A stretch of 64,000 bases of DNA, from NCBI GenBank assembly GCA_009377575.1, contig WHTU01000010.1, positions 1 to 64,000 on the forward strand, given 5' to 3'. Within the stretch, counting starts at the first letter, position 1, and every line of letters begins with the position of its first letter. Under the pieces are notes generated by a model. It ran no database searches. It saw only the letters and a program-made list of their open reading frames with translations, and was not told the origin of the DNA. The stretch is from Nitrososphaeraceae archaeon. Its GTDB lineage: Archaea; Thermoproteota; Nitrososphaeria; Nitrososphaerales; Nitrososphaeraceae. This document shows positions 6,067-9,490 of the stretch, piece by piece. The translations under genes and the position numbers were made by a program.

Positions 6067-8457
6067 TTAAGAAGCATTCTTGATCTTAAGTAGTAAAACT
6101 TTTTTGTTGTTGTTCAACTGGGAACCTTTCCATATGCTTGGAAAATATATCTTTGCATTTTGATCAGTGACCAATTTAAATCCACATTCACCCAGGGTAT
6201 GTGATATACGACTTTCGTGCTCTCCATAGTCGTCAATGTCAGTTAGAATTTGCACGGTACCATCATGACGTACCTTAGGTTTCATAATTGAAAGTAATGA
6301 TTTGAATGATACGATTTGGGTCGAATCTTCTCTTTGGTCCAATATATCTCTGGATAGGACAATAATGAAATTATCCACCACACTGTCAAATAAATTTGGA
6401 ATTAACTTTTGAGGACTTCCCCAAAATGCAGATGCGTTAGGTGGATCCAACATTGCAAACCGATTTTTGGCTCTAAGAACTTCCTGCTGATCTTGACTTA
6501 TGCCAATAAAATATTCAGCCCAATTGTCTATGGCCACTTGCTCAAGCATCTCTCCATTCAACATCGCGAGCTGGACGTTTACTTTTAAGAATAATTTTTT
6601 TGCATCAGCAATCGTCCGATTCAATTGAGTTGAGGGGTTACCTTCATGGAAGAATTGATAAATCAAGTTCCATCTTTGTTTAAATACATCCGGAAATGTC
6701 TTACTATGCAGTAGTTCTTGGAATAATTTGGTTTCTGCGAAATCTGCAAAGAAAGCATCCGTTCGCGAGACGGCCTCAAGTTTGGGGAGATACAATTCGT
6801 CATAAAGACTCGTAACTCTATCCCATGCTCGAATAGGATCTGAACTCATATATGTAACTGACAGGTCAGCTAACCAGAGTATTTCTGCGAGGAGACTAAT
6901 TTTTTCTGAATCATATCCTTCAGCAGATAAATCTTTCAAGAGACTTGAGAATGTATTCCGTGGCTCTTTCAGCGCAGAGTACGGAAAATCAGTATGCCAA
7001 ATAAGTGCTTCTATCACTAGGCTCTCCTTTGGCCTTTCGTATGCTCTTGATTGCAAATACTCTGGATGCGTGGTGGAAAATTCGGCCTGCATCTTCAGTG
7101 AGTGCGCGTGATCCCGAAAATACTCTTCAAATTCTGATGGATTCAAGATGAAATAGGCTTCATGAATTCTAGTCTTCTTGAGTTCACTAATAGTTCTGCT
7201 AACCTTCGGTCCTATGACAGAGACCGGCGTCCCGTTATCGTTGACAGCTGTTGCTACAAATGTTGATTGTACCGGATCATAGTCATGCAACAGAGCTGAA
7301 ACAAGGATGAGTTCGTAGTCGTTCCCAGTAAACACAAATCCACGAAAATCTCGGGGTAACATTTGCAAGACCATATATGAAACCTCTAGGCTATGGTGAA
7401 AATTATGGTACTCTGTCGAGCCCTCGCCTAATCCTTGGTTGTCGTACGCGTTTCTTAAGAAACTTGTTAGCGTTTTTATTTTGCGAATACTGTTTGGAGG
7501 AATACCTCGATCAGTAGCAACCTGAATTATGGCGGTAATCAGTTCTTCGTCCTTGGCATTTGCGAGATTCTTGTTGATGTCGCTTATAAAGTTCCTTTTT
7601 GAGCGGGGTAAGTAACGAGCTACTTCCTCATAAATTATTCTAAGAGGCAAACTCTTATTAAGATAAATGCCAAAAATAGTTATCCCGTGAGGATATTTTA
7701 TTCTTGGTTTCTCTCGTTCAAATACCTCTTCGGAAGCGCTTACCAATGCTTTATTCAGGTCGGTTATTCGGGCTCTAATTTCCTGACCCTCTAACGATTG
7801 GAATTCCCGGGGGTCGATATATCTTGATCTCTCTGTGTTCATCACCATCCACTGAGGAATTTTTACTCTATATCTGAAGTAACCTCGTTTGCTCTGTTGC
7901 GAGGATAGGAATGCAATTCTTTCCTTAATTGTAACGGCAACATTTCTACGTCCATTTGAAAACGGGAGCTCGTTGTCACGAACAACCTGAATTATTATTT
8001 CCCTGTCTTTGGATTGGAGACCAAGGAGTATATGCCAATATTTGCCTTTATCGAGCCAACTTGGAGCTTTAGTTTCTTTGTCCCAAAAATCGATGGGACC
8101 TAACGGGAGATAACCATTTTCATACTGCTTGGTTTCGGGATTATAGGAACGATACTGATAATCTCCAATTTGAGGATCAAGCTGTTTTGCCTTGTACTTC
8201 GCCGATAATACCCTCTCTGCCGATCTAGTTAACTCCCGATAAGCCATCGCACCCCAGATAGTTCCTAACGCACTCATCAACGTAAGTATAGCCGCAACGG
8301 TGTCGACTTGGTTAGTTATGAAGTAAGTTGGAGTTAGAGGTATTCCAAACCATCCAGTTGCAAGTAATCCACTGAATGTCAAAGTGATGAAGAGCCATCT
8401 TGCTAGATCATTGTAGTAAAGGCTAAATGACTTGGTTCCATCACCGAAATAACTCAT
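6067..8457 (-). CDS. Membrane-anchored class I PDE-like HD-domain protein fused to a degenerate TrmB-like methyltransferase domain
   Basis: 796 residues. Two membrane helices at about 20-40 and 52-72 are followed by a charged cytoplasmic region (80-340) without a recognised fold. Residues 345-620 read like a class I cyclic-nucleotide phosphodiesterase catalytic domain: YHNFHH (His351 and His355), LLHDYD (His391-Asp392), WHTD (Asp490) and WLADLS (Asp531), in the correct order and spacing. Residues 640-790 resemble TrmB-type tRNA methyltransferases: YFIGIS with a long helix, a loop before LIPNLF, and ILTDIDDYGEHE near the GF(K/E)L strand. The glycine-rich SAM loop is missing, so this part may be a non-catalytic sensor or scaffold. 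No other gene shares its transcript. Hydrolysis of a cyclic nucleotide is inferred, not shown. Confidence 0.72.
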   Translation of the reverse strand: MSYFGDGTKSFSLYYNDLARWLFITLTFSGLLATGWFGIPLTPTYFITNQVDTVAAILTLMSALGTIWGAMAYRELTRSAERVLSAKYKAKQLDPQIGDYQYRSYNPETKQYENGYLPLGPIDFWDKETKAPSWLDKGKYWHILLGLQSKDREIIIQVVRDNELPFSNGRRNVAVTIKERIAFLSSQQSKRGYFRYRVKIPQWMVMNTERSRYIDPREFQSLEGQEIRARITDLNKALVSASEEVFEREKPRIKYPHGITIFGIYLNKSLPLRIIYEEVARYLPRSKRNFISDINKNLANAKDEELITAIIQVATDRGIPPNSIRKIKTLTSFLRNAYDNQGLGEGSTEYHNFHHSLEVSYMVLQMLPRDFRGFVFTGNDYELILVSALLHDYDPVQSTFVATAVNDNGTPVSVIGPKVSRTISELKKTRIHEAYFILNPSEFEEYFRDHAHSLKMQAEFSTTHPEYLQSRAYERPKESLVIEALIWHTDFPYSALKEPRNTFSSLLKDLSAEGYDSEKISLLAEILWLADLSVTYMSSDPIRAWDRVTSLYDELYLPKLEAVSRTDAFFADFAETKLFQELLHSKTFPDVFKQRWNLIYQFFHEGNPSTQLNRTIADAKKLFLKVNVQLAMLNGEMLEQVAIDNWAEYFIGISQDQQEVLRAKNRFAMLDPPNASAFWGSPQKLIPNLFDSVVDNFIIVLSRDILDQREDSTQIVSFKSLLSIMKPKVRHDGTVQILTDIDDYGEHESRISHTLGECGFKLVTDQNAKIYFPSIWKGSQLNNNKKVLLLKIKNAS

Positions 8458-8543: not shown

Positions 8544-9278
8544 TCACTTCCCTTTATTATTGAAATCAGTTCTTGCAATCTCGTCTTTCAGATCGGACCA
8601 TTGTTCAGATTGGTGGACACGCCATTTCTCATAACAAACAACATTCTCTAAATTCAATCTCCGTAGCCAACCAGAACGTTCCAGGTCAGGTGTATTTTCA
8701 AACTCACTTACATAACCTAGACATAGATAAGCAACGGGTGAAACGTAATCAGGGATCTCAAGGATTTCTCGGATTTTACAATTTGAGATGATACTTACCC
8801 ATCCCATGCCCAAACCCTCCGCACGAGCTGCTAGCCAGAGGTTTTGGATGGCACAACAAACGCTGTATACTCCCGTCTCCGAAATAGACGTTCTGCCAAG
8901 CACAAAAGGACCAAACTTGTTTGGATCATACGTAATACAAATGTTTAATGAAGATTCCAAAATCCCTTCAAGCTTTAGAGATGTGTACTTACGTTGCCTT
9001 TCTTGATCTGATTCAAGCATCTTGACAGATTTCTGGAATTCCTCTATGAATGAGTGTTTTATCCTTTCTCTTATCTTCATATCGCTAATTAGAATAAAGT
9101 CCCATGGCTGAGAGAATCCCACAGACGGAGCGTGATGAGCAGCATTAAGAATCCTAGCCAAAACGCTCCCCGGTATTTTCTCTTCCAGAAATTTGGTCCT
9201 AACATCCCTACGAGAAAAGATCGCTTTATACACCGCATCTTTTTCATACTGAACAAAGGAGTTCTGAGAAGTGTTCAA
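8544..9278 (-). CDS. bluB: 5,6-dimethylbenzimidazole synthase BluB (nitroreductase fold)
   Basis: 244 residues. BluB breaks down reduced FMN with oxygen to give 5,6-dimethylbenzimidazole, the lower ligand of cobalamin. Family marks seen here are SRRDVR near residue 23, AAHHAPSVGFSQPWDFIL (about 46-63), the SLKLEGI segment, LGRTSI, and CAIQNLWLAARAEGLGMGWVS (about 140-161). The SVGFSQPWDF loop separates BluB from ordinary nitroreductases, which lack the first arginine-rich signature. The gene is single; a 137-base gap with TATA-like sequences separates it from the tRNA-Val gene on the other strand. Confidence 0.88.
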   Translation of the reverse strand: MNTSQNSFVQYEKDAVYKAIFSRRDVRTKFLEEKIPGSVLARILNAAHHAPSVGFSQPWDFILISDMKIRERIKHSFIEEFQKSVKMLESDQERQRKYTSLKLEGILESSLNICITYDPNKFGPFVLGRTSISETGVYSVCCAIQNLWLAARAEGLGMGWVSIISNCKIREILEIPDYVSPVAYLCLGYVSEFENTPDLERSGWLRRLNLENVVCYEKWRVHQSEQWSDLKDEIARTDFNNKGK

Positions 9279-9415: not shown

Positions 9416-9490
9416 GGGCCGGTGGTCCAGCCTGGTTAAGATACCGCCTTGACATGGCGGGGGTCGTTGGTTCGAATCCGACCCGGCCCA
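9416..9490 (+). tRNA. tRNA-Val (GAC anticodon)
   Basis: A complete cloverleaf can be drawn. The acceptor stem is gggccgg paired with ccggccc, with A as discriminator at 9490. The anticodon arm is ccgcc-ttgacat-ggcgg with anticodon gac, which reads GUC and GUU valine codons. The T arm is gttgg-ttcgaat-ccgac. A five-base variable loop is present and no intron is seen. CCA is not encoded (the sequence continues with atttactggg). It stands between bluB and the HTH/zinc gene, both on the other strand. Confidence 0.95.

Follow-up and report, generated by a model that had tools for sequence, protein, structure and literature searches.

A family-conserved archaeal membrane protein joining a class I phosphodiesterase-like HD domain to a degenerate TrmB-like methyltransferase domain

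Results

The fusion gene, its conservation and its N-terminal region

The gene under study lies on the minus strand of a 64,000-nucleotide stretch from a Nitrososphaeraceae archaeon (contig WHTU01000010.1, positions 1 to 64,000), the whole of which is referred to here as the window. The features of the gene and of its upstream neighbour are as follows, with the basis for each in brackets.

6067..8457, minus strand: whole fusion gene, 796 aa, stop codon included (ATG start; family-wide conservation)
8344..8421, minus strand: membrane helix 1, residues 13–38 (hydropathy, AF2 helix)
8179..8301, minus strand: membrane helix 2 running into a predicted cytosolic stalk helix, residues 53–93 (hydropathy, AF2 helix)
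7588..8169, minus strand: conserved mixed domain of unknown type, residues 97–290 (alignment)
6592..7575, minus strand: class I PDE-like HD domain, all-helical, residues 295–622 (PDEase_I profile, PDB profile, Foldseek)
7381..7410, minus strand: YHNFHHSLEV, with His 351 as presumed catalytic residue and His 355 as presumed metal ligand (H351, H354 and H355 in 35/35 homologues)
7273..7287, minus strand: HDYDP, with presumed metal ligands H391 and D392, and Pro 395 where HDx2H has its second His (35/35)
6988..6993, minus strand: T489-D490 motif (35/35)
6859..6870, minus strand: ADLS, with presumed fourth metal ligand D531 (D531 in 35/35)
6637..6654, minus strand: FFHEGN, residues 602–607 (F602, E605 and G606 in 35/35)
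6070..6591, minus strand: pseudo-methyltransferase of the TrmB (tRNA m7G) fold, residues 623–796 (profile and fold matches)
6547..6579, minus strand: degenerate SAM motif I, NVQLAMLNGEM, residues 627–637 (aligned to EVGSGKG of TrmB and ELGMGDG of a standalone relative)
8544..9278, minus strand: BluB (5,6-dimethylbenzimidazole synthase), nitroreductase family, outside the fusion protein (TIGR02476, 231.9 bits against a cut-off of 150)

A preliminary description of this DNA had taken the frame at 6067–8457 for a real membrane protein and had pointed to other Nitrososphaeria as the place to look for the same fusion; conservation and selection support a real protein, and the fusion recurs in other genomes of the family. 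Whole-genome searches recovered the fusion at 41–95% identity in each of the 37 Nitrososphaeraceae genomes of the first search (its own and 36 sampled), and no full-length homologue was seen in genomes of the other families of the order. A GTDB scan with one genome per species returned 49 loci (39–95% identity), titled Nitrososphaera, Nitrosocosmicus, Nitrosopolaris or other Nitrososphaerales/Thaumarchaeota; the fusion sequence at the one locus labelled Nitrosopumilus groups with Nitrosocosmicus. Values of dN/dS were ~0.05–0.25 in every pair compared, within and between genera, and all domains of the fusion are under purifying selection, the C-terminal domain being generally the fastest evolving yet still constrained (0.07–0.26). 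Because the frame is kept in every family genome searched at such ratios, it is more than a chance occurrence, and a chance or misread ORF was ruled out on these grounds together with the 49 GTDB loci. An assembly artefact was likewise ruled out, as the fusion is a single open frame in nearly all same-family genomes, six single-contig ones included. No homologue matched phage or plasmid records and PADLOC gave no match, by which a mobile or phage origin and a defence role were discarded.

The two N-terminal membrane helices described earlier were recovered both by hydropathy, which places hydrophobic helices at residues ~21–41 and ~50–73, and in the AF2 model of the whole protein (mean pLDDT 79.7), with helices at 13–38 and 53–93. 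The domain that follows, residues 97–290, is without a Pfam match and carries the motifs IGDYxYxSYNPET, DFWDxET, WLDKGKYW, KIPQWxVMNTE and LNKSLP.

The HD domain matches class I phosphodiesterases in fold

Four residues coordinate the metals in class I phosphodiesterases (PDEs): the second His of YHNxxH, both residues of HD and a late Asp; TD, though conserved, does not bind metal directly. The window protein presents Y350-H351-N352-F-H354-H355, H391-D392, T489-D490 and A530-D531-L-S in that order. By analogy with these enzymes, we take H351 to be the catalytic acid and H355, H391, D392 and D531 to be the metal ligands. The YHN-x-HH, HD, TD and ADLS elements previously listed as a complete ligand set are thus all present in the order given, although TD does not belong among the direct ligands. 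In an alignment of 35 homologues, H351, H354, H355, H391, D392, D394, T489, D490, D531, D540, F602, E605 and G606 are invariant, and N352 is kept in 31.

Matches to the Pfam family PDEase_I were found in 35 of 35 members at E ≤ 1 but were always weak (best E 4.8e-5), spanning mainly YHN..HDxD, and the window protein scores 18.2 bits, below the gathering cut-off of 24.8. As a specificity control, PDEase_I was run against 300 genomes from the phylum, which gave 29 weak matches, 6 of them above the cut-off; the two of these six that were read both proved to be HD proteins of dNTPase-like type, carrying the motifs HTRFEHSVGV and HDVGHG. Since such proteins also match PDEase_I, a weak Pfam match alone is not diagnostic; what is diagnostic for class I PDE kinship is the fold result together with the YHN triplet and HDxD. 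A profile of the HD domain, searched against 177,635 PDB sequences, returned class I PDEs first, namely PDE9A (E 6.8e-4), then PDE1B, PDEB1 and PDE10A, with SAMHD1 and HD-GYP absent among the matches listed. Class I PDE catalytic domains also made up all 50 matches listed when the model of the domain (pLDDT 84.9, pTM 0.87) was compared with the PDB by Foldseek; the best, PDE9A (6lzz), had an E value of 5.5e-4 and a TM score of ~0.5 on both sides, a moderate similarity. Identity with SAMHD1-type dNTPases, which the weak PDEase_I matches might have allowed, was ruled out because these enzymes are absent among the PDB and fold matches listed for the domain. The HD domain very probably has the class I PDE fold.

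The likeness to class I PDEs (PF00233; PDE9A, PDE5A, PDE10A, PDE1B and trypanosome PDEB1) covers the HD fold over the whole domain and the YHNxxH, HD, TD, late Asp and FFx[QE]G[DN]-like motifs, FFHEGN presumably corresponding to the late FFxQGD motif. The domain is nevertheless not a canonical class I PDE, and the class I assignment of the preliminary description holds for sequence profile and fold but not for the class signature or the Pfam cut-off. The signature HDx2H(x4)N is broken by Pro395, which replaces the second His in 35/35 homologues (HDYDP for HDxDH), and ~70 residues are inserted between the HD and TD motifs. The helix with the base-recognizing Gln would be expected, by PDE numbering, ~20 residues past FFHEGN; no clear equivalent of this Gln was found, and strand 1 of the methyltransferase domain starts at about that distance, so that the terminal base-recognition helices appear to have been replaced by the TrmB-like domain. 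The fusion also differs from class I PDEs in being archaeal and in its membrane helices.

The C-terminal domain is a degenerate TrmB-like methyltransferase

Pfam Methyltransf_4 matches residues ~623–770 in 33 of 35 members (best E 7.5e-9), TrmB from the PDB (1yzh) matches the C-terminal domain in a profile search (E 3.3e-7), and Foldseek returned TrmB/NpmB-type folds with target TM scores of 0.60–0.68. Residues 635–796 are therefore related to methyltransferases by both profile and fold and, as had been noted from the sequence, TrmB-like motifs occur here without a glycine-rich SAM loop. In place of the motif I consensus ExGxGxG, the window protein has NVQLAMLNGE, with one glycine left and without the motif I Glu, and its relatives typically have N-x-E-I-G-M-R-R-G-E. 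Across the 35 homologues, position 629 is Glu in 18, position 631 Gly in 19 and position 635 Gly in 24, and position 633 is never Gly among the residues listed, the central glycine being absent in nearly all relatives. The acid that ends strand 2 is lost in 34/35 (IGIS/IGIG), with Asp in the remaining one. IGIGxDQ was considered as the SAM loop and rejected, as the profile alignment puts motif I at residues 627–637.

Given the eroded motif I and the lost strand-2 acid, the domain very probably does not methylate, and SAM binding is doubtful as judged from these residues; their loss also argues against simple SAM sensing in the window protein. The domain shares with the tRNA (guanine-N7) methyltransferase TrmB (PF02390, TIGR00091) a Rossmann methyltransferase fold, the order of strands and helices, and WGD and TD remnants. 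It differs from TrmB in its degenerate motif I and ribose-binding acid, in the absence of the PWPKKRH catalytic/tRNA motif and in being fused to an HD domain, and it scores 14.9 bits against the TIGR00091 equivalog cut-off of 112.65. As defining features of each family are missing, the fusion was classed neither as a class I PDE nor as TrmB.

Standalone and paralogous relatives of the two domains

A direct search with the window protein found a standalone TrmB-like protein of 190–215 aa in five relatives (L091–L095), and profile alignment with hhalign, by which the fusion was compared with this family and with the HD+GNAT family below, related it to the C-terminal domain with a probability of 99%; no closer relative of that domain was found. 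Whereas the SAM loop and acid are eroded in the fusion, the standalone protein has both intact (ELGMGDGR..VGIDLD), and because the ELGxGDGR loop and the VGIDLD acid are retained, it is probably an active methyltransferase. In these Nitrososphaeraceae, its gene adjoins a MIP18-type Fe-S assembly gene.

A second HD family, of 440–570 aa, carries a C-terminal GNAT-like domain where the fusion has its pseudo-methyltransferase, and is without membrane helices. The copy in the genome of the window is encoded at C88:5345-7057 on the minus strand (L107; relatives L080–L090 and L096–L099), and this HD(PDE-like)+GNAT architecture is conserved across ammonia-oxidising Nitrososphaerales. It shares GLGxDYYGYHNIxHELE and FHDYDP with the fusion (hhalign probability 99%), its TD is changed to TA or TT and its last ligand is Glu or Asp. 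A PDB profile search with this family alone returned PDE5A, again with neither SAMHD1 nor HD-GYP among the matches listed. The HD+GNAT paralogue lineage is the probable source of the HD domain in the fusion, and the HD+GNAT protein is possibly a messenger-linked acetyltransferase.

No description of a fusion between a PDE-like and a pseudo-methyltransferase domain was found in a non-exhaustive search of the open literature. Its parts are of known kinds, and it is homologous to both class I PDEs and TrmB; the combination is new to the literature searched, and the architecture is new.

Cyclic nucleotide signalling genes in the same genomes

Very few archaeal cyclases belong to class III according to a 2021 study (PMC8646023). 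The genome of the window encodes 11 class III cyclase-like genes (L108–L118, on contigs C342, C177, C343, C2, C144, C319, C355, C351, C369 and C325), one of which (L116) is fused to a receiver domain; up to 20 occur in one relative, and most Nitrososphaeraceae genomes have several. In most of the 11, the Asp motifs for metal and the Lys/Asp motifs for the base are retained; Lys often replaces the catalytic Arg. The same genome encodes two proteins of 560–600 aa with cNMP-binding domains (C323:5029-5289 and C22:39386-39652), which are possible messenger effectors. The presence of class III cyclases together with cNMP-binding proteins makes a cyclic nucleotide a plausible substrate for the HD domain.

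The HD family, counting fusion and HD+GNAT proteins together, was found in 153 of the 250 genomes searched within the order. Cyclases are encoded in all of these but two, which are incomplete (59% and 69%). Families and lineages of the order without cyclases are also without the HD family, and two cyclase-bearing families (f8 and f10) lack it. This co-occurrence is supportive but not decisive, as it may reflect a single shared event in the ancestor of the ammonia-oxidising archaea. Genetic linkage is not supported: cyclase genes lie near the fusion in 2 of 49 loci, about as gene density predicts. In one genome (G011), a class III cyclase-like gene (L097:2968-3609, plus strand) lies ~0.7 kb from the HD+GNAT gene, and in another (G030) a cyclase lies ~3 kb from it on the same contig.

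Proposed function and alternatives

The reading that we favour, with a probability of roughly 0.6, is a cNMP phosphodiesterase tethered to the membrane and capped or regulated by a pseudo-methyltransferase; catalysis, substrate, topology and the role of the pseudo-methyltransferase are all inferred. The fusion would be anchored in the membrane, face the cytosol and, as a metal-dependent phosphodiesterase with the class I PDE fold, act most likely on a 3',5'-cyclic mononucleotide (cAMP or cGMP) from the class III cyclases of the cell, with the two membrane helices and domain 97–290 as the presumptive signal-bearing part. The TrmB-like domain would no longer methylate; because it starts where the base-recognition helices of a class I PDE would be expected, its role is probably to cap the catalytic pocket or complete it, or else to serve in dimerisation or regulation. 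On the best reading, a pseudo-methyltransferase would have replaced or capped the C-terminal lobe of the PDE; replacement of the recognition lobe is a specific, testable hypothesis. A tentative extension, which we think less likely to be right in full, is that the substrate-recognition lobe has given way to a dead methyltransferase, or that the latter serves as a SAM/SAH-linked regulator, in a membrane off-switch of a little-studied cyclase/PDE messenger network in ammonia-oxidising archaea of soils.

Archaeal cyclic nucleotide signalling is poorly known, and the evidence suggests that the fusion may be an undescribed component that switches it off. If active, it would provide a concrete, testable part of the machinery by which these abundant soil nitrifiers turn over messengers, and a rare example of a phosphodiesterase that incorporates a pseudo-methyltransferase. 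A CpdA-type (class III) cAMP PDE has already been reported in Thaumarchaeota (PMC9289680), so the fusion need not be the cAMP PDE; CpdA resembles it in the proposed role, the breakdown of cAMP, but has an unrelated metallophosphoesterase fold.

The main rival, possible but clearly less probable than the favoured reading, is an active metal phosphohydrolase with another substrate (a dNTP or NTP, a cyclic dinucleotide, a modified nucleotide or a lipid-linked phosphate) in which the TrmB-like domain would help to form a new pocket. The apparent absence of the base-recognition end, the broken HDx2H, the long insertion and the sub-threshold PDEase_I matches of generic HD dNTPases would all fit it. 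It is countered by the retained YHN catalytic His, by the co-occurring cyclases and by fold and sequence neighbours that are cNMP PDEs rather than SAMHD1, HD-GYP or PgpH among the matches listed.

The pseudo-methyltransferase sensor of the preliminary description, taken as a C-terminal domain that responds to SAM/SAH through altered ligand contacts and tunes the PDE, is unlikely. The domain is kept in 33/35 members and is constrained, and many relatives have two of the three motif I glycines, but the acid that would bind the SAM ribose is missing in 34/35, and the window protein has one glycine and no motif I Glu. Slightly less probable again is that both enzymatic domains are inactive and the protein serves in the membrane as a scaffold or as a receptor for a ligand: Pro395 departs from the signature, the methyltransferase is already degenerate and PDE-like pseudoenzymes are conceivable, yet metal ligands and catalytic His are invariant down to ~40% identity, which would be unusual for a dead enzyme.

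The gene neighbourhood

In the window, 86 bp separate the fusion from BluB, which lies upstream on the same strand, and BluB is found in this position at 18 loci, but a joint role in cobamide lower-ligand metabolism is very improbable, as other genera keep the fusion beside different genes (SMC, inositol-phosphate synthase, lyase) and no domain of it points to cobamide metabolism. Neighbours differ by genus, with BluB upstream and SMC or an inositol-1-phosphate-synthase-like gene downstream; in the window, a Dph2-like gene follows. SMC lies directly downstream on the same strand in several genera, at ~50–120 bp in most (L039, L044, L045, L068, L073–L075 and L079). The only tRNA gene that ARAGORN reports in the window is tRNA-Val (gac), at 9416-9490 on the plus strand.
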